DNA from: Mycobacterium sp.
Lineage (GTDB): Bacteria > Actinomycetota > Actinomycetes > Mycobacteriales > Mycobacteriaceae
Direction: 5' to 3'
Assembly (NCBI GenBank): GCA_016197405.1
Contig: JACPVR010000003.1
Location: 1 to 64,000, forward strand
DNA length: 64,000 nt
Numbering within the stretch: the stretch's first letter is position 1; each line of letters opens with the position of its first letter. Shown in pieces: positions 18,638 through 30,072 of this stretch. The position numbers were made by a program, and so were the translations under genes. The notes under the pieces were generated by a model, which worked only from the letters and a program-made list of their open reading frames with translations, was not told the DNA's origin and searched no databases.

Positions 18638-21600
18638 TCAGTCCATGGCGTCGGCGGACGCCATATGTCCTTCGAATCTCAATGCGTGAGCGATCTTTCG
18701 GTAATCGTCGCGCAAGTCGCGGTAGCCGGTGGCGTTTTCCCGTGCCTTTTCCAGTAGTGCCCTCTGGTACAGCAGCGGCAGCTCCTGAAAGGTGTAGCCA
18801 CCCGATGTTGCCGCGAAGCGGGCTATCGCCGACGAAGCCTCATCGATATCGCCGCCACCGGACCTGTGTAGCAACGCTTCGACCAAGACCGTGGTGACCT
18901 GCGGCGCGATTATCGCGTTGCCGCTGCCGAACATATCCTCGGCGGTGCGTCGCGCCAGTCGGATGGCACTATCGGTGTCACCGGAGCGAAGCAGGTGTCG
19001 TGCATACTGCACATCGGCCGTCGGTATCGCCGCTGTCAGAAAGCGGTCCTTAGCGGCGGCTTCGGTCGCCGACGCGAGCATTTCGAATGCCTCGTTTCGC
19101 GTTGAGTCATGACACGCCAGTGTGATCCCTCGCGTGAGGTGAGTACCGGACAGGGTGAAGTCGTCGCCGAAACGTTCGGCGGCACGCGCGAGTTCGGCCG
19201 TCTCGGAAAGCGCGACATCATCGGCAACCAAAACCCCAGCCGGTATGGCGAATACGTACTTGTAGGTCAGCACGATCGCGAGGGTGGTGGGATCACATAT
19301 CCGGCCCAGAGCCGTGGCATCAGCGAAATCCTCCCGCCATCCGGGGATCCCGAGGGCGATACGAGCTATCGCGCGAAGCACGGTTGCCGTCGCCAGCGGC
19401 GACGTGCTGAATCTGGTGCCTTTGTCTTTGTCGCCGTCGGCCATGTCGATGACGCGCTGGGATTGGTCAAGCAATGCGTGCATCCGACCCGACTGGTAGA
19501 TCGCGTACATCGACACGGTCAGCGCGGCGAGCACCACATCTGCATCGTCGAGTGAGCCCACCAACGCGACCAGCTCGGCGGTGAGTGCGCACGCAGTGTC
19601 GAGGTCATCGTGCAAGCCCAGCATCGCGCACTGGCCAATCATGGCGACAGCAAGCGCGTTATGGTCGTTGGATTCGATTGCCAACAAACGCAATTCCTCG
19701 TACCCCGTGTCGGCCACCGGTGCACCCACCCTCCACGCGCTTCCGGTCAACGGCAAACGGGCCGCAATCTGCATCGTCGTACGCCCTGGAATATCGATGG
19801 GTAACAAGTCGGCGATATCGCGTGCCCGACGCCAGCTCGACCGTGCCGCCGGGACGTCGCGTGAGGCGAACCAGTCGCCGGCACGCATATGCCAGGCAAA
19901 GGCATCGGCGAAATCACCAGCTGCTTCGTGGTGTTCGGCGATCATCGCGGCATTGCGATCGGTCCCGGTCTCATCGGATGCTATCGCCGCGGCGACCTGT
20001 CGATGCAGCTCGCAGCGATCAGACCGCAGCTGTGATTCGTATGCCACCGCGCGGATGAGTGGATGCCGGAAGGCATATTCCGGATCCGGCGTATAGGCCA
20101 CCTGCTCGAGCAGATCGGCGTTTACAGCCGCGGCGACGTCGACCTCGCCGAGCAACCTTTTCAGGACATTGCCGCCGAAGCGGCCGCCGAGGACGGCGGC
20201 GGCGTTCAGCGTCCGCTTTCCCCGCCGGTCGAGCCGGTCGATACGGGCGGCGATCGTGGATTGCAGTGTCGCCGGGATACCGATATCCGTGGTGTCCTGC
20301 TGACACACGTAGCGTCCGGGAAGCCCGTCCAGCACACCGCGTTCGGATAGGTCGCGGACCATTTCCTGTGCAAAGAACGGGTTTCCGTCAGCACGGACGG
20401 CGATGTGGGCCTTGAGTTTTATCGTCGAGGTGTCGGTGCCGACGATGGTGTCCAGCAGATCTGCGGTTTGCGCATCACGTAGCGGAGTCAAGGAGATCCG
20501 CTGACCGCTGACGGCCTGCGCCAGCGGGCCGCGGTATTCCGGGCGGTATGTCACCACCATCAGAATCCAGGTCTGCGACAGAACCGATGCGAAGTCGGCC
20601 AGCATGGCCTCGCTGGCGGGGTCGATCCAATGGGCGTCTTCGACGACCACGACGGCGGGTGCATCCCGGCTCAGCGCAGCGGTGTTCAGCAGGCCGGTCA
20701 CCCGACGTCGCCGGGCATCAGGGGCGACTTCCAGCGTGCGGGCGACGTGTTCGCGTATTCCGAGCAAGTCTTCGAGGAGGGTGATATCGGTGTCGTCGGC
20801 GGTACTGAGCCGCCGTCGCAGCGCGGCACGGGTGGCGCTGTCGTCGAGGCCCTCGATGCCGAACACCGATCGCAGGAGTCCGCTCGCCGCTCGGAATGCA
20901 ATATCGCCCGTATGGGATTCGCAGTAGGCCGTATACACGGCGATCTGTTGGTTCGTGGCATGCGTCGTCGCTTCGCGCGTCAGTCGGCTCTTTCCGATTC
21001 CTGGTGGTCCGACGACGCCGACGAGACCGCCGGTACCCGACACCGCTTGGTCAATCATTGCTACCAGTGCGCTGAGTTCCCAGGTCCGCCCCACCAGCTT
21101 CGGCTCGTCGCGCGGACGGTCACCGGCCGGCAGCGTCGCCGGCAGCAGCTGTCGCGCGCGTATCGATGTTTGGAGGCCCTTGATCTGAACCAATTCGGGC
21201 TCCGCCATGACGACCCGCCCGACTACCAGCTTTGCCGTCGATTCACCGAGCATGACACCACCGGGTGGCGCGATCGACTCCATCCTTTGCGCCAGACCCA
21301 CGTGTTCGCCGACCGCGGTATACCCGGCCGCACCAGTGCTGATTTCGCCGACGATCACAGCACCGGAGTTGATCCCGATGCGGAGCTGCAAAGCCACGCC
21401 GTTGCGGCTGTCGACATTTGCGGCAAGACGCTCGATGTCCCGTTGGATATCCAGGGCAGCCAGGCAGGCGCGATACGCGTGGTCCTCCAGGGCCGCCGGC
21501 GCGCCGAAGAGTGCCATGATCCCGTCGCCGGTGAACTTGTCGACGGTTCCACCGAAGCGTTTGACCACCCTTGCGCACAGGTCGAACACCTCGCCCATCA

Positions 21601-21784
21601 CTTCGCGTAGGCGCTCAGGATCGAGGGCCGCGGCGATATCCATCGACCGCACGACATCGGTGAACAAAACGGTGACCTGCTTGTACTCGGCACGCGAATC
21701 GCAAGACTCCAGCGCCGCCCCGCAGCTGTCGCAGAACCGCGCACCTTCACGCGGCTGCGCCCCGCATCCCCGGCATACCGCCAT
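18638..21784 (-). CDS. Class III nucleotidyl cyclase fused to AAA/STAND-type ATPase
   Basis: A 1048-residue multidomain protein. Order: zinc ribbon CRGCG...CDSCG (4-22); class III cyclase domain (about 35-205) with metal aspartates D43 and D87 (KFTGDG, K83 for purine), T156 at the adenine-reading position, and R167; Walker A GPPGIGKS (259-266) and Walker B VVVVEDAHWIDP of a STAND-like ATPase; then about 500 residues of TPR-like helices. The transition-state Asn is replaced by Gly (VGLAQR, G163), so activity may be altered. There is no C-terminal LuxR HTH, unlike Mtb Rv0386/Rv1358. The start at 21784 is supported by GGGGAGG five bases upstream. It is inserted between amiB2 and the Rv1264 counterpart. 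Confidence 0.88.
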   Translation of the reverse strand: MAVCRGCGAQPREGARFCDSCGAALESCDSRAEYKQVTVLFTDVVRSMDIAAALDPERLREVMGEVFDLCARVVKRFGGTVDKFTGDGIMALFGAPAALEDHAYRACLAALDIQRDIERLAANVDSRNGVALQLRIGINSGAVIVGEISTGAAGYTAVGEHVGLAQRMESIAPPGGVMLGESTAKLVVGRVVMAEPELVQIKGLQTSIRARQLLPATLPAGDRPRDEPKLVGRTWELSALVAMIDQAVSGTGGLVGVVGPPGIGKSRLTREATTHATNQQIAVYTAYCESHTGDIAFRAASGLLRSVFGIEGLDDSATRAALRRRLSTADDTDITLLEDLLGIREHVARTLEVAPDARRRRVTGLLNTAALSRDAPAVVVVEDAHWIDPASEAMLADFASVLSQTWILMVVTYRPEYRGPLAQAVSGQRISLTPLRDAQTADLLDTIVGTDTSTIKLKAHIAVRADGNPFFAQEMVRDLSERGVLDGLPGRYVCQQDTTDIGIPATLQSTIAARIDRLDRRGKRTLNAAAVLGGRFGGNVLKRLLGEVDVAAAVNADLLEQVAYTPDPEYAFRHPLIRAVAYESQLRSDRCELHRQVAAAIASDETGTDRNAAMIAEHHEAAGDFADAFAWHMRAGDWFASRDVPAARSSWRRARDIADLLPIDIPGRTTMQIAARLPLTGSAWRVGAPVADTGYEELRLLAIESNDHNALAVAMIGQCAMLGLHDDLDTACALTAELVALVGSLDDADVVLAALTVSMYAIYQSGRMHALLDQSQRVIDMADGDKDKGTRFSTSPLATATVLRAIARIALGIPGWREDFADATALGRICDPTTLAIVLTYKYVFAIPAGVLVADDVALSETAELARAAERFGDDFTLSGTHLTRGITLACHDSTRNEAFEMLASATEAAAKDRFLTAAIPTADVQYARHLLRSGDTDSAIRLARRTAEDMFGSGNAIIAPQVTTVLVEALLHRSGGGDIDEASSAIARFAATSGGYTFQELPLLYQRALLEKARENATGYRDLRDDYRKIAHALRFEGHMASADAMD

Positions 21785-21872
21785 GCGACCTCCCCGATGG
21801 TCTGCAATGCCCGCCCAACCGAGGGTAATCCCGGAGGTCTTCAGAGTCCCGGGAGTGGGCGACAATATCGAC

Positions 21873-22160
21873 ATGGGTCTGTTCGGCGGTGCCAAGGACG
21901 ATATCGACGACGGCGGTCTGCGCCGGCGGGTCGAGGAACTGGAACGACGCGTCGCGGCGCTGGAGTGGGCGTTGCGTGATGCGGGCCGGCAACCGGACCG
22001 CCTGCCCGAACCACCACATCAGCAGGTCGACGGCGACGGGATCAGCCCCGAGGTCCGTCAGCTGGCCATGCAGGGCAAGAAGATCCAGGCGATCAAGGTG
22101 CTGCGTGAACAGACTGGTCTCGGTCTGAAGGAATCCAAGGACATCGTCGACCGGCTCTAG
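21873..22160 (+). CDS. Small protein with ribosomal L7/L12 C-terminal-like motif
   Basis: A 95-residue protein. Residues 1-45 contain a heptad-like helix (LRRRVEELERRVAALEWAL), and the C-terminal half reads KKIQAIKVLREQTGLGLKES then KDIVDRL, nearly the helix-turn of the bL12 C-terminal domain that contacts translation factors. It is not bL12 itself: it lacks the N-terminal dimerisation domain and hinge. Similar small actinobacterial proteins carry this motif with no assigned role. GACAAT six bases before the ATG suggests a leaderless start. The 3' end overlaps the convergent glycosylase gene by 4 bp. Confidence 0.8.
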   Translation: MGLFGGAKDDIDDGGLRRRVEELERRVAALEWALRDAGRQPDRLPEPPHQQVDGDGISPEVRQLAMQGKKIQAIKVLREQTGLGLKESKDIVDRL

Positions 22161-22648
22161 CTGGTGATCACCCGCCAGGCATCGAGCTTCGCCGGATACC
22201 CGAGAGTGTGCGCCGGGCTGGTCGACGGCAACCGTGCATATGTCACCGAAGCGTCCATGCCGACCAGCTTGGCGTAGTTCGCCTCGGCTGCCGCGCCGTT
22301 GAAGAACACCCGGGTGATCGACGGATGGCGGTCGAAGAACACGGCAAAGTCGTTGGGCGCCATGCTGTCTCGCTCGACGGCCGAATCCAGGCTGCCCGGC
22401 CGGCGGCAGGACTCCAGCACATCCCAGACCGCCACCCGGGCTGAGATCAGCGATGCGACACGCACGTCGTAGTCGGCCTGGGCGTCGAAGCCGAACAGTT
22501 CCCCGGCGATACGCCAGAACGCGTTGCGCGGGTTTCCGTAGTACTGGCCGGCAGTCAGCGACAGCACGCTGGGCATGTTGCCGAGGATCAACAGCGAAGG
22601 GCTGCCACCGACGATCGGTGGCAGCCCCTGCAGCAGTGGTGAGCTCAT
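22157..22648 (-). CDS. DNA-deoxyinosine glycosylase (UDG family 6, HDG)
   Basis: A 163-residue uracil-DNA-glycosylase-superfamily protein. LLILGNMPSVLSLTAGQYYG followed by NPRNAFW (about 20-46) is the family 6 hypoxanthine-DNA glycosylase motif I, and the C-terminal LPSTSPAHTLGYPAKLDAW holds the SPA-type DNA-intercalation motif. The family excises hypoxanthine formed by adenine deamination. Its ATG overlaps the stop of the upstream flavin monooxygenase by one base (TGATG), so translation is coupled. With udgB 9 kb away, the window encodes two deaminated-base glycosylases. Confidence 0.85.
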   Translation of the reverse strand: MSSPLLQGLPPIVGGSPSLLILGNMPSVLSLTAGQYYGNPRNAFWRIAGELFGFDAQADYDVRVASLISARVAVWDVLESCRRPGSLDSAVERDSMAPNDFAVFFDRHPSITRVFFNGAAAEANYAKLVGMDASVTYARLPSTSPAHTLGYPAKLDAWRVITS

Positions 22649-24474
22649 CAGCTCACATGATGCACCTCGGCCAATCCGTACACCGGTGTCGGGATGCCCT
22701 CATAGCGGGCTTTGAGCTGCAATGCCAGGTACAGCGAGTAATGCCGTGACTGGTGCAGGTTGCCGCCGTGGAACCACAGGTTGTCCTGCTGGGTGGGCTT
22801 CCACATATTGCGCTGCTCACCCTCCCACGGCCCGGGATCCTTCGGGGTGTCGCTGCCCAGGCCCCACACTTTGCCGACCTTGTCGGCGATCTCCTGGCCC
22901 ATCAGGTCGGCGGCCCAGCCGTTCATCGAGCCGTAGCCGGTGGCGTAGACAACCAGATCGGCGGGCAGTTCGGTACCGTCGGCCAGCACCACCGAATCCT
23001 TCGTCAGATGCGAGACCTGGCCGTGCGCCAGCTTGATCGAACCGTCGGCCACCAGATCACAGGCCCCCACGTCGATGTAGTAGCCCGAACCGCGTCGCAG
23101 ATACTTCATGAACAGGCCGGAACCGTCTGAGCCCCAGTCCAATTCGAATCCGGCGTCGGCGAGTCGCTGGTAGAACTCCTTGTCTCGTTCGCGGATCGCG
23201 TCGTAGATCGGGATCTGGAACTCGTGCATGATGCGATACGGCAGCGAGGCGAAGGTCAGATCGGCCTTGTCGGTGGTCATCCCGGCAGCCAGGGCGCGTT
23301 CGGAGTACAGATCACCCAGCCCGAGGTCCATCAGCGAATCGGATTTGACGATATGCGTCGACGAGCGCTGCACCATCGTCACGTCGACGCCGTTCTCGAC
23401 GAGCGCCTTGCAGATATCGTGCGCGGAGTTGTTCGACCCGATCACCACGACCTTCTTGCCCGCGTAGCGGTCCGGCCCGGGATGCGCGCTTGAGTGGTGC
23501 TGCTCGCCGGCGAACACGTCCTGGCCCGGCAGCACCGGGATGCTGGGCTTACCCGACATGCCGGTCGCGAGCACCAACTGCGTCGGGTGCAGCGTCAGCT
23601 TCTCGCCGTCGCGGTCCACCTCGACAGTCCACCGGCCCGACGCCTCGTCGTAGGACGCGGACCGGCATGTCGTCTTCGACCAGTACGGGACCTCCATCAC
23701 CCGGGTGTAGAACTCCAGCCAGTCGCCGATCTTGTCCTTGGGCGCGAACACCGGCCAGTTCTGCGGGAAGGGCATGTACGGCAGGTGGTCGTACCAGACC
23801 GGATCGTGCAGGCACAGCGACTTGTAGCGCTTGCGCCACTGGTCGCCGGGGCGGTCGTGCTTGTCGACGACGATCGCCGGCACGCCGAGCTGACGTAGCC
23901 GCGCGCCGAGCGCGATGCCGCCCTGACCGCCGCCGATCACCAGCACATAGGGCTGCTCGCTGCGGCCCAGGGCAGCCTCCTCGGCGGCGCGCTTCTCGGC
24001 CCACGACCGCGGGTCGGGATCGGAACCGTGCACCGCGCCCAGCACCCGGGTCACACCCTTGCGCTCCTCGTGGCCCTTGATCTCCTGCAGCGTGGTCAGC
24101 AGCGTCCACGCCAGGTCCGTTCCCGCGTCGCTCCGGAGCCGCAGATGCCCGACGCCGCGACCTACCGCGGTCTCGAACTCGATGAACGCCGAGGTCACAT
24201 CACCATCGGTGACGGGTTCTTCGCGGGTGCGGAACCCGGACGGGTCGGTATCGGCAAGCCGGGCGCCGAGCATATCGGCAACGCCGTCGCGGCCCTCGAC
24301 GGTCTTGATGTTCCAGGTGAAGGCGACCAGGTCGCGCCAGAAGCTGTCGGTGGCGAACATTGCCACCACGCGGTCGATGTCGCGGGCCGCCAGCGCTGCC
24401 TCGAAATCGGCAAGCCAGGCGTCGACGCGCTGCTGCGGGGTCAGGGCAGTACTGGGTTCCAACGTTTGTGTCAT
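22648..24474 (-). CDS. NTF2-like domain fused to FAD/NADPH monooxygenase (FMO/BVMO-like)
   Basis: A 608-residue protein. Residues 1-150 form an NTF2/SnoaL-like domain (WLADFEAALAARDIDRVVAMFATDSFWRDL). The rest is a class B flavoprotein monooxygenase: FAD-binding GGGQGG (181-186), NADPH-binding VVVIGSNNSAHD (343-354), and a closing ATGYGSMNGW motif. Family members oxygenate ketones or soft heteroatoms; the substrate is unknown. MTQTLEPS at 24474 is chosen as start because the NTF2 fold begins there. It faces the butanediol-type dehydrogenase across a symmetric operator-like palindrome and is coupled to the DNA glycosylase downstream. Confidence 0.88.
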   Translation of the reverse strand: MTQTLEPSTALTPQQRVDAWLADFEAALAARDIDRVVAMFATDSFWRDLVAFTWNIKTVEGRDGVADMLGARLADTDPSGFRTREEPVTDGDVTSAFIEFETAVGRGVGHLRLRSDAGTDLAWTLLTTLQEIKGHEERKGVTRVLGAVHGSDPDPRSWAEKRAAEEAALGRSEQPYVLVIGGGQGGIALGARLRQLGVPAIVVDKHDRPGDQWRKRYKSLCLHDPVWYDHLPYMPFPQNWPVFAPKDKIGDWLEFYTRVMEVPYWSKTTCRSASYDEASGRWTVEVDRDGEKLTLHPTQLVLATGMSGKPSIPVLPGQDVFAGEQHHSSAHPGPDRYAGKKVVVIGSNNSAHDICKALVENGVDVTMVQRSSTHIVKSDSLMDLGLGDLYSERALAAGMTTDKADLTFASLPYRIMHEFQIPIYDAIRERDKEFYQRLADAGFELDWGSDGSGLFMKYLRRGSGYYIDVGACDLVADGSIKLAHGQVSHLTKDSVVLADGTELPADLVVYATGYGSMNGWAADLMGQEIADKVGKVWGLGSDTPKDPGPWEGEQRNMWKPTQQDNLWFHGGNLHQSRHYSLYLALQLKARYEGIPTPVYGLAEVHHVS

Positions 24475-24510
24475 GTGACCCAGCGCACACCCTGGCCGCC
24501 GGGGCGCGCA

Positions 24511-24556
24511 AGAGTTGCGAGACGTTGCAGTCGGCAGTGCAACCCCTTGCAACTCT
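24511..24556. promoter_or_regulatory. 46-bp nested symmetric palindrome between divergent catabolic genes
   Basis: Outer arms AGAGTTGC (24511-24518) and GCAACTCT (24549-24556), inner arms GTTGCA (24524-24529) and TGCAAC (24538-24543), with equal 5-nt spacers on both sides and an 8-nt centre (24530-24537). All 14 arm bases match on each side. The centre is 59 bp from both starts (FMO ATG 24474; dehydrogenase ATG 24593). This is what two cooperating dimers of one regulator would bind; the GAF regulator at 26455 is the obvious candidate. Confidence 0.75.
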
Positions 24557-24592
24557 TTCGCATTGTGGCCGCAGTCACATAGACATGCCGTT

Positions 24593-25639
24593 ATGAAAGC
24601 AGCTGTGTACTACGGGCCCAACAAGGTCGAGATCGACGATGTCGCCGAACCGGATCCCGCCCCGGGCACCGTCAAACTGAAGGTCGGTTTCAACGGCATC
24701 TGCGGCACCGACCTGCACGAGTACTACGCCGGCCCGATCTTCGTGCCCACCGAACCGCACCCGCTGACCCACCAGCAACTGCCCTTGACCATGGGGCACG
24801 AGTTCTCCGGAACCATCACCGCGCTGGGCGCCGGCGTAACCGGCTGGGCCGAGGGTGACCGGGTGGCCGTCGAGCCCATCTACAAGTGCGGGCACTGCGT
24901 GCCGTGCCTGGCCGGCAATTACAACGTGTGCCAGCAGATCGGGTTTCACGGTCTGATGTCCGACGGCGGGATGGCCGAATACACCGTGGTTCCCACCGAC
25001 ATGCTGCACAAGCTGCCCGACAACGTCGGCTTGGAGCTCGGTGCGCTGGTCGAGCCCATGTCGGTGGCCTATCACGCTGCCACACTGGGCGATACGAACC
25101 CTGGTGACACCGCGATGGTGTTCGGTGCAGGCCCGATCGGTATCGGTCTGTGGTTCGCGTTGCGCGGCAAGGGTCTTGACGATGTCTTCGTGGTGGAGCC
25201 GTCGGCGACCAGGCGTGCGGCAATCGAGGTCCTCGGCGCCAAGACGCTCGATCCGACCGCGCTCGACGTGCCGGCGTTCATCGCCGAGCACACCAAGGGT
25301 GCCGGCGCCGACGCGGTGTTCGACGCCGCCGGTGTCACCCCCGCGGTGGTCACGGCACTGGCCTGCGTCGGCTCCCGTAAGCCGATGGTCAGCGTCGCGA
25401 TCTACGAGAAGCCGCTGGAGACCCCGCTGCTGAACCTGGTGATGAACGAGTCCCGGATCCAGGGCTCACTGTGCTACACCGGCGCGGACTTCGAGGCCGT
25501 GATCGCGCTGATGGCCGAAGGCCGCTACGACACCACGGGCTGGGTCGCCCACATTCCGATCGATGACGTGGTCGATGAGGGCTTCGAGGCACTGCACGCC
25601 GGCAAGAAGATGAAAGTTCTTGTCGATCCGACGATCTGA
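24593..25639 (+). CDS. 2,3-butanediol dehydrogenase-type zinc alcohol dehydrogenase
   Basis: A 348-residue medium-chain dehydrogenase/reductase. Catalytic zinc ligands are C37 (GICGTDLHEY) and H69-E70 (GHEFSG); structural zinc cysteines are C99, C102, C105 and C113 (CGHCVPCLAGNYNVC). The nucleotide loop is GAGPIGIG. GICGTDLHEYYAGPIFVP and HPLTHQQLPLTMGHE are typical of (R,R)-butanediol dehydrogenases that interconvert 2,3-butanediol and acetoin with NAD. The ATG at 24593 fits the family N terminus. It leads the operon dehydrogenase, SDR, GAF regulator. Confidence 0.88.
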   Translation: MKAAVYYGPNKVEIDDVAEPDPAPGTVKLKVGFNGICGTDLHEYYAGPIFVPTEPHPLTHQQLPLTMGHEFSGTITALGAGVTGWAEGDRVAVEPIYKCGHCVPCLAGNYNVCQQIGFHGLMSDGGMAEYTVVPTDMLHKLPDNVGLELGALVEPMSVAYHAATLGDTNPGDTAMVFGAGPIGIGLWFALRGKGLDDVFVVEPSATRRAAIEVLGAKTLDPTALDVPAFIAEHTKGAGADAVFDAAGVTPAVVTALACVGSRKPMVSVAIYEKPLETPLLNLVMNESRIQGSLCYTGADFEAVIALMAEGRYDTTGWVAHIPIDDVVDEGFEALHAGKKMKVLVDPTI

Positions 25640-25649
25640 GGGATGCAAC

Positions 25650-26429
25650 ATGACATTGACAGGAAAAGTCGCCCTGGTGACAGGCGCAGGCCGTGGTATC
25701 GGGCGCGGCATCGCGCTGCGGCTGGCACGAGACGGTGCCGATATCGCGCTGGTGGACGTGGCCGCGGACACCGTCGCCGCGGTTGCCGATGAGATCGCCG
25801 AAATCGGCTGCAAGACAACCACATTTGTCGCCGACGTCAGCGATCGCGCTCAGGTGTTCGCCGCCGTCGACGATGCCGCCGCCGCGCTCGGCGGTTTCGA
25901 CATCATGGTCAACAATGCCGGTGTCGCGCTGGTCGGTCCGATCGCCGAGGTCACTCCCGACGAGCTCAAGCGGTTGTGGGCGATCAACGTCGACGGTGTG
26001 CTGTGGGGTATCCAGGCCGCGGTCGCCAAATTCAAGGAGCTCGGCCGCCCCGGAAAAATCATCAACGCCTCGTCAATCGCGGGGCACGACGGTTTCGCGA
26101 TGCTCGGGCCCTACAGTGCCACCAAGTTCGCGGTCCGGGCGCTGACGCAGGCCGCCGCCAAGGAGCACGCCGCCGACGGCATCACCGTCAACGCCTACTG
26201 TCCCGGAGTGGTCGGCACCGACATGTGGGTCGAGATCGACAAACGCTTCGCCGCGCTGACCGGCGCCGCCGAAGGCGAGACCTATGACAAGTTCGTCGGT
26301 GGTATCGCGCTGGGCCGCGCCGAGACACCCGATGACGTCGCGGGCTTCGTTTCCTATCTGGCCGGGCCGGATGCCGACTACATGACCGGGCAGGCCGGAC
26401 TCATCGACGGCGGGCTGGTCTACCGCTGA
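25650..26429 (+). CDS. Acetoin/diacetyl reductase-like SDR
   Basis: A 259-residue classical short-chain dehydrogenase. TGAGRGIG (11-18) binds the cofactor; NNAG, S (NASSIAG), and YSATK supply the catalytic set. VDGVLWGIQAAVAKFKELG, GKIINASSIAGH, YCPGVVGTDMW and SPDADYMTGQ-like PDADYMTGQAGLIDGG closely follow meso-2,3-butanediol dehydrogenase/diacetyl reductase (BudC). It starts 10 bp after the dehydrogenase stop, so the pair could interconvert butanediol stereoisomers and acetoin. Some related vicinal-diol or ketone substrate remains possible. Confidence 0.87.
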   Translation: MTLTGKVALVTGAGRGIGRGIALRLARDGADIALVDVAADTVAAVADEIAEIGCKTTTFVADVSDRAQVFAAVDDAAAALGGFDIMVNNAGVALVGPIAEVTPDELKRLWAINVDGVLWGIQAAVAKFKELGRPGKIINASSIAGHDGFAMLGPYSATKFAVRALTQAAAKEHAADGITVNAYCPGVVGTDMWVEIDKRFAALTGAAEGETYDKFVGGIALGRAETPDDVAGFVSYLAGPDADYMTGQAGLIDGGLVYR

Positions 26430-26454
26430 TCTGTGACGGGGAGCACAATCGACT

Positions 26455-27741
26455 GTGATGTCCGTACCTGAACCGGCGGTCGCCGTGGGCGAGGATCCGC
26501 GCAGTTATGCGCGGCTGATGTCGGCTGTGTACGAAGCGACTATGGCGGGCAACCGCGCACCGGCCCGGCCGCGCACGGTGATCAGCGATTCCTGGCAGCG
26601 CGTGATGGCCAGCGGCGCCGACCCCGACAGCCACGCGGCGCCGGTGGTCGAGACCGGCGCGCTGGAGCTGCTCCGGCGATCGTCGGGTCTGATGTCGGTC
26701 CTCGACGAGGTCTCACGGGGATTGGAATCCCTTGTGGCCGAGGGGGATAACATCCTGGTCGTCGCCGACGCCAAGGGTCGGGTGCTGTGGCGGTCCGGCT
26801 CGCCGTCGGTGCTCGGCAACGCCGACCGGCTGGGCTTCGTCGAGGGCGCGCACTGGGGTGAGGGTGCCGTCGGAACCAACGCGATCGGCACCGCGCTGGC
26901 CTCCCACCGTGCCGTGCAGGTGTTCTCCGCCGAGCACTTCATGCGCAGCCACCACGGGTGGACCTGCGCGGGCGCGCCGATCCGCGACCCACGTACCGGC
27001 CAGGTGATCGGCGTGGTGGACGTCTCCGGCCCGGCGGCCACCGTGCACCCGACGACCGTAGCGCTCGTCGACGTCGTGGCGCGGCTCGCCGAATCCCAGC
27101 TGCGCGAGCAGCACGACCGCACGCTGAACCGTCTGCGCACCGTCGCCGCCCCCATCCTGGCCCGGATCGGCAGCCCCGCGTTGGCCGTCGATGCCGAGGG
27201 CTGGGTCGCTGCGGTCGATTCGCTGCCGCTGCACAACCGCATCCTGCTGCCCGGCGAGATGGCCCCGGGACGAGTGTGGATCCCGACCCTGGGGCTGTGC
27301 GAGGTGGAGTTTCTGCCCGGCGGCTGGCTGGTGCGGGTGGATCCGGACCAGACCGGCGACACCGTCGGGACCGGGGCCTCGCGGGTGACTCTGGATCTGC
27401 GCAGCGCCGGATCGCCGTCTCTGGAGATGGTCGGGCAGTTCGGTTCCTGGCGGCACATCATCTCGTTACGACATGCCGAGATCCTGCTGATCCTCGCGCT
27501 GTTCAGCGAAGGCCGGACCGCGACGCAGCTGGCGACCGATCTCTACGGCGATCCCACCCGCGTCGTCACGGTCCGTGCCGAGATGTCGCGACTGCGAAAA
27601 CAATTGGCGGGCTTGGTGATCGGCAGGCCATACCGGTTCGGTACCAACGTCGCCGTGCAGGTCTGCTATCCCGACGACATGACGGCATTGCTGGCCGCCT
27701 CCACCTCCCCGGCCGTACGGGCCGCGCGGGTGCCGCGCTGA
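26455..27741 (+). CDS. GAF-domain regulator (AcoR/MimR-like N terminus, winged-helix C terminus)
   Basis: A 428-residue regulator. Residues 25-210 match the sensory half of AcoR-type activators: [14 protein letters not shown], then a GAF domain with [16 protein letters not shown] and [18 protein letters not shown], and [21 protein letters not shown]. There is no sigma-54 AAA+ domain. Instead, a linker leads to a winged-helix-like end ([20 protein letters not shown] then [18 protein letters not shown], about 340-395). Actinobacterial relatives such as MimR control ketone and alcohol oxidation genes. It sits third in the dehydrogenase operon and is the likely reader of the 24511-24556 palindrome. 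GTG 26455 or ATG 26458 are equally possible starts. Confidence 0.85.
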
Positions 27742-27760
27742 CCGCGGTAGTTTGACCTAC

Positions 27761-28876
27761 GTGGAGCAACCCGACATCGCGGCCAGTGGCCTGCTCGACG
27801 AACTGGACGGGCAACAGCGCAACGAGCGCGCCGAACTGATCGCCTGGCTGCTGGACCAGGGGTTCACCCTCGACCAGATCCGCGGGTCGTTCTCGCCGAT
27901 CCTGTTGGCGTCGCGACGCGTCATCGGCGACGACGGCACGTTCGTCTCGACCCGCGACATCGCCGCCAAGACCGGCGCCGATATCGAGCTGATCCGCCGC
28001 GTGCAGCGGGCGATAGGCCTGCCGACCGCAGAGGACCCGGACGCGGCGGTGTATCTGCGGGCCGACGGCGAAGCCGTGGGACACACCACCGGCTTCATCG
28101 ATCTGGGCTTCGATGCCGACGATCTACTGCAGGTGACCCGCAATCTGGCCGAGGGGCTGGCCGGAACCGCGGAAATGATGCGATCGACGGCCCTTGCGGC
28201 GGTATTGCGGCCCGGGGCAAGCGAACTCGACACCGCCAAGGCCGCGGTGGACATCGTCACCAAGGTGGCACCGCTGCTCGGTCCGATGATCGAGGACATG
28301 CTCATGGTGCAGTTGCGGCACGCCATGGAAACCGAAGCGGTCAACGCCTCGGAGCGGGCGTCCGGTCAGCCGTTGCCCGGGGCGCGCGAGATCGCGGTGG
28401 CATTCGCCGATCTGGTGGGCTTCACCCGGCTCGGTGAGGAGCTGCCGCCGGAGGATCTCGAGGCACTCGCGCACCGGTTGGCGACGATGGCCCGCGATGT
28501 CGCGGTCCCGCCGGTGCGCTTCGTCAAGACCATCGGGGATGCCGTCATGCTGGTGTGCCCGGAGCCCGCACCCCTGCTCGCGGCGATGCTGGAGCTGGCC
28601 GGCGCGGCCCAGGCCGACGCCGACTTCCCGCGGCTGCGGGTCGGTATCGCGTTCGGCGAAGCGGTCAGCCGGGCCGGCGACTGGTTCGGCAGCCCGGTGA
28701 ACCTGGCCAGCCGGGTCACCGGGGTGGCGCGGCCCGGCGCGGTCCTGGTGTCCGAGGCGACGCGGGAGGCGATCGGCGACGACGAGGGTTTCGACTGGTC
28801 CTTCGCCGGCGCGCGTCACCTCAAGGGCATCAAGGGTGAGACCAAGCTCTACCGCGCACGCCTGCACGCGGACTGA
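27761..28876 (+). CDS. Rv1264-type pH-sensing adenylyl cyclase
   Basis: A 371-residue class III adenylyl cyclase collinear with Mtb Rv1264. The N-terminal autoinhibitory domain (1-200) includes [21 protein letters not shown] and [20 protein letters not shown]. The C-terminal catalytic domain has metal aspartates D217 and D260, adenine-reading K256 and D307, and transition-state N314 and R318; all six are present. Rv1264 makes cAMP from ATP and is switched on by acid pH. GTG 27761 is preferred over TTG 27752 because TAGTTT (27748-27753) ends seven bases before it, a leaderless arrangement. Confidence 0.92.
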
Positions 28877-28884
28877 GACTCCTC

Positions 28885-29766
28885 TCACTGCACCGGGATC
28901 GTCACACCTTCCGACGGTTGCACGATGACGAAGCCCTGACCGGCGAAGGCGACCTGCAGTGCCTCACCGGATCCGCGGCCTATCAGCGCCCCGGCCTTGA
29001 AACTGGCCTTGAGCGAGGTCTGTAGGTTCGCCGACCAGGCGACGACGGCGTTGGTGTCGGCGAATGTCGGTGCCTCGCCGGCATTGAGGACCACCGGCGG
29101 ACCATCGGTGGTCAGGGCCACCCAGCCGGTGCCGCGCAGCGTGGTGTTGAACAGCCCGCCGGTCGCGATGCTGCCGCCTTTGACCCGTTCGACATTCCAG
29201 TCCAGGCTCGACGAGAACGCCAGGACGTTCTTACCGCTCACCGAAAGCCCGCTGTTGGACAGCTTCAGCAGGTGGATGTCGTAGGCCCGGTCGGCGAGGA
29301 ACACATCGCCCTGGCCCTGGCAGCGCATCAGTGGCAGGCCCTCGCCGGTGAACGCCTTCTTGATGAACTTCGACGCTCCGCTGCCTTCGTAGGCGAAATC
29401 GACATTGCCCTGATAGGCCACCATCGCACCCTGGCGGGCCATGAACGGCTCGCCGAGGCGCACGCGGAACATCTTGGCGTTCTGGTTGGCGATCGGGGTG
29501 GCTTCCTTCTCGCTGAACCGGCCGTCCACCAGATCACCGCTGATACCGGCGAAGCCGTCACCGGCCGGGGTGGGTTCCGGTGTCGCATGCGCCGGGCCGG
29601 ACGGTGCCTGGGCCGACTGTGGTTGGGCCGGTGGGCCGCCCAGCGGGGCCTGGAACACCTGACCCCGGGTGGAGACCTGATCGGTCCAGGTCTGACCATC
29701 CCACCAGCGGAACTCGAAGCGGCCCTCCGGATCAGGTTGCCAGCTCCCAGGATTTGGTTGATTCAC
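28885..29766 (-). CDS. AIM24-family protein with N-terminal DUF2510 domain
   Basis: A 293-residue protein. Residues 3-32 (NPGSWQPDPEGRFEFRWWDG then WTDQV) form a DUF2510 motif, common at the N terminus of actinobacterial envelope proteins. A Pro/Ala/Gln-rich linker follows (35-70), then a TRAP-like AIM24 beta barrel (about 80-290) with QGNVDFAYEGSG, LFNTTLRGTGWVAL and GSGEALQVAFAGQGFVIVQPSE. The molecular function is unknown; AIM24 in yeast is mitochondrial. The GTG start at 29766 follows GAGGAG. It converges with the cyclase gene (8-bp gap). Confidence 0.82.
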   Translation of the reverse strand: MNQPNPGSWQPDPEGRFEFRWWDGQTWTDQVSTRGQVFQAPLGGPPAQPQSAQAPSGPAHATPEPTPAGDGFAGISGDLVDGRFSEKEATPIANQNAKMFRVRLGEPFMARQGAMVAYQGNVDFAYEGSGASKFIKKAFTGEGLPLMRCQGQGDVFLADRAYDIHLLKLSNSGLSVSGKNVLAFSSSLDWNVERVKGGSIATGGLFNTTLRGTGWVALTTDGPPVVLNAGEAPTFADTNAVVAWSANLQTSLKASFKAGALIGRGSGEALQVAFAGQGFVIVQPSEGVTIPVQ

Positions 29767-29871
29767 CGCGCACTCCTCGTTGAATATCGACAGCAGGCAC
29801 TTCGAAATCCCAGCGTATGTCAGCCGGGCCGAGCCATTGCCGATCTCGTGGTCAGGGCGCATCCTTGGCGC

Positions 29872-30072
29872 ATGGCAGGCAAGGAGATCGACCGTGAGCG
29901 GGCCCGCGGCGCACTGGAGGTCGTCAAAGCCCATCCCGGCATGACGCTTTTCGCGGTGTCACCGGCGATCATCGCGTTGGGCGCGGTGTGGTGGTTGCTG
30001 GGTGGGGGCTGGGCCTTCGTGCTGCTGCTGGTGATGGTGGCAGGCGGGGCGGCGATAGTCCTCAAACGCTGA
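29872..30072 (+). CDS. Small two-helix membrane protein
   Basis: A 66-residue protein with a charged N terminus (MAGKEIDRERARGALEVVKAHPGM) and two close hydrophobic segments, about 28-44 (AVSPAIIALGAVWWLLG) and 46-63 (GWAFVLLLVMVAGGAAIVL), ending in KR. It is probably a hairpin membrane protein with both ends in the cytoplasm. No family recognised. It is divergent from the AIM24 gene with a 105-bp gap. The coding call rests on a clean start, typical composition and position. Confidence 0.6.
   Translation: MAGKEIDRERARGALEVVKAHPGMTLFAVSPAIIALGAVWWLLGGGWAFVLLLVMVAGGAAIVLKR

Follow-up and report, generated by a model that had tools for sequence, protein, structure and literature searches.

A palindrome between monooxygenase and butanediol dehydrogenase-type genes of Mycobacterium consists of two mirrored directional TGCAAC repeats, predicted operators of a GAF/winged-helix regulator

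How are two divergent gene arms controlled when an exact palindrome lies between them? The question is raised by a locus in a 64,000-nucleotide stretch of a Mycobacterium sp. contig (JACPVR010000003.1, assembly GCA_016197405.1; hereafter the window). Here a gene for a type II flavin-containing monooxygenase (FMO; 22648-24474, minus strand) diverges across 118 bp from three plus-strand genes (24593-27741). These encode a zinc-dependent dehydrogenase (BDH; 24593-25639), a short-chain dehydrogenase/reductase (SDR; 25650-26429) and a regulator with a GAF domain (26455-27741). An earlier note on this DNA had read the palindrome as one shared operator, occupied by two dimers of the GAF protein, that switches both arms together.

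The palindrome (24510-24557) reads AAGAGTTGC-gagac-GTTGCA-gtcggcag-TGCAAC-ccctt-GCAACTCTT with 15 matched bases on each side. It had been placed correctly at 24511-24556 with 14 matched bases per arm, and one more base pairs on each side. The 24-nt arms of a broader inverted repeat (24506-24529 / 24538-24561) are 83% complementary. At up to three mismatches, the window contains a single instance of the four-box pattern and 100 shuffles contain none; in the whole source genome (6.1 Mb), the inner GTTGCA-N8-TGCAAC is matched exactly once. The palindrome resolves into a directional direct repeat of period 10, TGCAAC-N4-TGCAAC-N-CTT, and its mirror image, one copy per gene. The predicted BDH-facing operator (TGCAACCCCTTGCAACTCTT, 24538-24557, plus strand) matches this pattern exactly and the predicted FMO-facing operator (TGCAACGTCTCGCAACTCTT, 24510-24529, minus strand) matches it with one mismatch. 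The centre is indeed equidistant from both starts (59.5 bp to each predicted ATG) because either arm is 35 bp away from the start codon that it faces. The starts used are the ATG at 24474 for FMO and at 24593 for BDH, chosen because relatives align from residue 1; the list of open reading frames (ORFs) also has longer frames from upstream TTG codons. In relatives, a script chose the start codon nearest to the aligned start.

The pattern, with 15 defined bases, was scored in related FMO loci, these being the best 80 of 583 relatives, with close relatives over-represented; on the FMO side up to 300 bp upstream was searched. The FMO-facing copy was present at up to two mismatches in 72 of the 80 loci (none in 30, one in 38 and two in 4), and 4 further loci have it at three. 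GCAA is invariant in both boxes of the profile of those 72 sites. In two loci without an N4 site (L080, L092) the boxes stand 87-90 bp upstream of FMO with a spacing of N5, and no site was found within 300 bp upstream of FMO in L034 and L077. Among the 26 loci in which BDH diverges from FMO, 25 have the mirrored copy at up to one mismatch and all 26 at up to two, and 23 have the FMO-facing copy at up to two (exceptions L029-L031). The GAF gene is itself divergent from FMO in 39 loci, from Gordonia, Nocardia, Nocardioides, Geodermatophilus and others. These have the FMO-facing copy in 34/39 at up to one mismatch and 38/39 at up to two, and the mirrored copy in 0/39 and 2/39, respectively. The remaining 15 loci have the FMO-facing copy in 11. 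A search upstream of homologous loci, which the earlier note had proposed, thus finds the element conserved where the genes are conserved.

The distance from arm to FMO start is 34-35 bp in 23 of the 26 BDH-divergent loci (including L029-L031, through three-mismatch sites) and that from arm to BDH start is 33-36 bp in 23 of the 26; in the other three, the arms on both sides lie 57-86 bp from the start. The gap between the arms varies across these 26 loci from -14 bp (boxes shared) to 94 bp. It reaches 1.3 kb in genomes G004 and G053, yet both arms there lie 33-35 bp from their own genes. The gene between the arms in these two genomes (L140, L141) encodes a FAD_binding_3 oxidoreductase. Moreover, eight Rhodococcus-type loci have BDH or SDR at a distance of 1.5-3.6 kb, and there a second copy lies 61-86 bp before that gene; these eight copies are every site at up to one mismatch outside FMO promoters in the 1.39 Mb of the 80 loci. 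The reversed pattern had no match outside FMO promoters in these 1.39 Mb at up to one mismatch, and sites with two mismatches outside FMO promoters, also eight, were taken as a tally only. The nested palindrome as a single unit was rejected because of the varying arm spacing, the loci with a single arm and the arms that accompany BDH or SDR elsewhere. In L028-L031, L041 and L136 the two sites have 14 bp in common, boxes included, and there one box pair may serve both directions.

The distribution of the site was surveyed in 98 congeners and in a sample of 296 genomes of the phylum. At E up to 1e-150, FMO was found in 32 of the congeners; the GAF gene was likewise found in 32, at E up to 1e-60. 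There are 37 exact sites, spread over 27/98 congeners; 34 share a contig with FMO and lie no more than 1.4 kb from it, another is at the GAF gene of G020, and the last two are on a contig that starts, by our reading, at BDH (a split assembly). The reversed pattern was found in 0/98. All 27 site-bearing genomes have the GAF gene, the exact site is present in 0 of the 66 genomes without it, and the five genomes with a GAF gene and no exact site have sites with one mismatch on both sides. The p-values computed for this association disregard kinship between the genomes. In the phylum sample, 4/296 genomes have the exact site, each time adjoining FMO or BDH. G020 (L131) has no FMO match, and the 14 kb examined contain neither BDH nor SDR; it keeps the GAF gene and one exact site, facing a DNA glycosylase gene, a state that probably arose by deletion. 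G074 has FMO and neither GAF gene nor site, with only 144 bp of upstream DNA covered. Second GAF copies at G056:C1:533052 (L138, 63% identical) and G077:C1:5298798 (L139, 43%) have no site at up to two mismatches in the stretches examined.

The regulator combines a DhaR-like N-terminal half, including the GAF domain, with a middle beta region and a predicted C-terminal winged helix of OmpR/SARP type (residues ~309-404, by model and profile), after which some 24 residues follow. Its only Pfam match at E up to 1 is GAF, and the earlier description of a GAF regulator without the sigma-54 ATPase domain stands. Neither the AAA+ sigma-54 domain nor the Fis helix-turn-helix (HTH) was found in the window protein, nor among the 25 families listed for the 55 members of the regulator alignment (54 of 72 complete GAF ORFs, with L090 among those left out and the rest left out by choice, plus the window protein). 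SARP sites are direct repeats 11 or 22 bp apart, the 3' repeat lying 8 bp from the -10; the repeats at this locus are direct with a period of 10. The regulator resembles AfsR and other SARPs in its predicted OmpR-type DNA-binding domain. However, no match to the BTA domain was found in the window protein, its winged helix is C-terminal rather than N-terminal, and its sensor is a GAF domain. With DhaR and AcoR it has the GAF-type N-terminal half in common, but a winged helix takes the place of the AAA+ sigma-54 domain and the Fis HTH. An AcoR-like sensor with a CadC-type HTH is also seen in another mycobacterium. Mycobacterium chubuense NBB4 has an AcoR; CadC1-HTH protein, MYCCH_RS28740, beside smoXYB1C1Z, described without experimental evidence in the part of PMC8784404 available; that protein, however, adjoins an alkane monooxygenase and no operator is given in that part. 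From model and profile, the regulator here is a DhaR-like sensor joined to a predicted OmpR/SARP-type DNA reader with a direct-repeat code of its own.

The same boxes recur at another spacing. Counting box gaps of 0-15 over the 80 loci gave N4 79 times, N5 six times and every other gap at most three times. Four of the N5 gaps precede the acetaldehyde dehydrogenase gene exaC and two precede a Pseudonocardia FMO. ExaC is encoded within or beside the unit in 7/80 loci; NCBIfam names it in two (both scanned, both over the cut-off) and the other five were named by >86% identity. In the source genome, TGCAAC-N5-TGCAAC stands before the ExaC gene at C3:97948-97967 (L004, L164, L179), beside a GAF paralogue; this ExaC relative, at 87% identity, is encoded away from the FMO locus. 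Across the genus, N5 sites were found at 13 places in 12/98 genomes (control 1), and 7 of the 13 precede ExaC beside a GAF gene.

Both arms are followed by a putative CRP-like element, TGTG-N7-TCACA. On the BDH side, TGTGGCCGCAGTCACA (24564-24579, plus strand) is followed by a -10-like TAGACA (24580-24585), and on the FMO side the last base of TGTGCGCTGGGTCACA (24474-24489, minus strand) is the A of the start codon. With up to 1/9 mismatch, the element follows the FMO-side site in 64/72 promoters (shuffle mean 0.2), in 62 of them 19-22 nt past the CTT. On the BDH/SDR side it lies 5-6 nt past the CTT in 29/34 promoters at the same threshold (shuffle mean 0.06); it continues as TCACATA in 29/29, a profile drawn from promoters pre-chosen for that match. 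The mycobacterial CRP consensus, in the part of PMC4218801 available, is TGTGA-N6-TCACA, whereas the form here is TGTG-N7-TCACA and its halves may overlap the core promoter. The likeness suggests a second regulatory input, which CRP would add. The transcripts are probably leaderless, with the arm at the -35 region. Scans of 20000-30000 gave three terminator-like matches against 2.2 expected, and no Rfam match.

The observations are the directional repeat and where it lies, how it is conserved, that it moves with its target gene and that it occurs together with the GAF gene. Our reading, to which we give a probability of about 0.78, is of two mirrored directional operators, each 35 bp before its own predicted start. 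From sequence, the protein predicted to bind both is the GAF/winged-helix regulator (26455-27741); it would activate the FMO and dehydrogenase promoters separately. Joint control by this protein is the best inference, since the element is conserved with the genes, co-occurs with the GAF gene and is present at both arms; to that extent the proposal of a GAF protein switching both arms holds, whilst the shared operator gives way to two independent directional repeats. The TGCAAC boxes are 10 bp apart and so lie on one helix face, and each pair would take side-by-side winged-helix domains at -35, as AfsR does on 11-bp repeats. The GAF half may sense a small carbonyl or diol. BDH, SDR and GAF would form one transcription unit, in which case positive feedback would result.

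Several results weigh against this reading. The sigma-70 promoter scan found no promoter-like site, so that the -35 and -10 assignments rest on conservation. When the C-terminal domain by itself was given to Foldseek, nothing scored below E 0.04, the top rows were unrelated proteins and the first OmpR-type row stood at rank 17; the VIA fold comparison is a re-alignment of Foldseek's list only. Pfam finds Trans_reg_C in 19 of the 55 aligned members (best E 0.002), the window protein not among them. The box period is 10 bp here and 11 bp in AfsR. L029-L031 and L094 are the loci with three mismatches on the FMO side, and in L029-L031 these sites overlap the BDH-facing site. Six of the 13 genus N5 places (L168, L170, L172-L175) lie near none of the seven genes searched, and it is possible that these are further regulon members or chance. 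Finally, the flank examined contains no GAF gene at L055, L069 and L088, which have the site, or at L072, which has both sites. These four loci are what one would expect if the repeats were read by another, unlinked regulator and the GAF protein worked elsewhere. We consider this improbable, as the GAF gene accompanies the site in 27/27 congeners and the exact site is in 0/66 genomes without it, G020 retains both despite having no FMO, and the GAF paralogue adjoining ExaC lies beside the same boxes. The original idea of one nested palindromic operator, with two GAF-protein dimers switching both arms as one unit, has for it the exact symmetry in the window and the small arm spacing in many relatives. 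It is very hard to reconcile with a mirrored arm absent at up to one mismatch from all 39 GAF-divergent loci, with spacings of -14 to 94 bp and 1.3 kb, with arms that follow BDH or SDR, and with a predicted winged-helix class whose member AfsR reads direct repeats. We therefore hold it to be highly improbable.

What the regulon does is less certain than how it is arranged. The earlier gene calls stand. FMO is nearest JsFMO (PDB 8acs, 919 bits), to whose residues 19-608 it aligns over its full length, including a SnoaL/NTF2-like N-terminal domain of ~160 residues (Pfam SnoaL_2, E 6e-5, under the gathering score). Its H223, D224 and Y465 correspond by alignment, with a probable numbering offset of 16, to His 216, Asp 217 and Tyr 458 of JsFMO. 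In its length, SnoaL-like domain and catalytic His-Asp-Tyr it is like the type II FMOs with an N-terminal extension (JsFMO and RHA1 FMO-E/F/G), but here the FMO is tied to a regulator and an operator. Enzymes of this class use both NADH and NADPH and have Baeyer-Villiger activity. BDH has an (R,R)-butanediol dehydrogenase (6ie0) as its nearest solved structure, and none of the listed NCBIfam models scored above its cut-off. SDR belongs to the acetoin reductase / 2,3-butanediol dehydrogenase subfamily (TIGR02415, 348 bits against a cut-off of 304; PDB 3wtc, 3wye, 1geg, 3a28).

With less confidence, we propose that BDH and SDR would oxidise stereoisomers of 2,3-butanediol to acetoin and that FMO may oxygenate acetoin or a related small ketone. 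The chances are about even that FMO is instead a general ketone/sulfide oxygenase unrelated to butanediol, with BDH and SDR in the regulon only through a common inducer. FMO faces a divergent GAF gene with no BDH between in 39/80 loci, and cyclobutanones, medium linear ketones and sulfides are substrates of JsFMO according to the part of PMC10028610 available, which makes no mention of a natural substrate, a physiological or biological role, or an operon. The linkage to two butanediol/acetoin-type dehydrogenases, and ExaC at 7/80 loci, speak against a general oxygenase. A more specific proposal is that FMO cleaves acetoin with O2 by a Baeyer-Villiger reaction (through 1-hydroxyethyl acetate to acetate and acetaldehyde), replacing acetoin dehydrogenase in actinobacteria, and that two paralogous GAF/winged-helix activators use the same TGCAAC boxes, separated by N4 (FMO/BDH/SDR) versus N5 (ExaC). 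The proposal draws on BDH and SDR being in the regulon, on ExaC at those 7 loci, on a single heterodimeric E1 alpha of pyruvate dehydrogenase type and on a parallel with mouse FMO5; we regard the whole as tentative and rather unlikely. A PF00676 search of the source genome found one large E1 and one heterodimeric E1 alpha, the latter scoring above a pyruvate dehydrogenase model's cut-off. No dedicated acetoin dehydrogenase was seen by this search, the model name leaving that activity possible, and acetoin cleavage by FMO was proposed for this reason. In mice, urinary 2,3-butanediol serves as a biomarker for the loss of FMO5, a Baeyer-Villiger enzyme, though the part of PMC9393927 available also reports altered stomach microbes, another possible source of 2,3-butanediol. 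Within CC-licensed PMC literature, with subscription literature outside the search, we found no paper on the TGCAAC operator or on acetoin as the substrate of such an FMO.

One base (22648) is common to the FMO stop and the start of a DNA glycosylase gene, and the earlier note had coupled the glycosylase to the locus. In the flanks examined it was found at only 2/80 loci (L037, L065), on which ground it was rejected as a member of the system; within this subclade it is a neighbour (also in L131). No conserved third enzyme was seen 3' of FMO in the 80 loci, with 10 neighbours scanned. One cluster there comprises 10 mycobacterial loci (one member scanned, an S9 peptidase) and another 7 loci, mostly Gordonia (two members scanned, universal stress proteins), whilst genes at single loci include an esterase (L063) and a phosphotriesterase (L066). 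Cyclase-domain proteins are encoded on both flanks (18638-21895 and 27752-28876, the latter beginning 10 bp past the GAF gene), one with AAA_16 and one with Ad_Cy_reg; these genes lie near the promoters with CRP-like elements.

Taken together, the earlier observation was right, its operator model is revised and its regulon reading is strengthened. A striking palindrome can result from two one-way sites set back to back, and the contrast between N4 and N5 suggests paralogues that share one box yet differ by spacing. The type II FMO, a biocatalyst type, now has a concrete operator, regulator and gene set, as predicted here.

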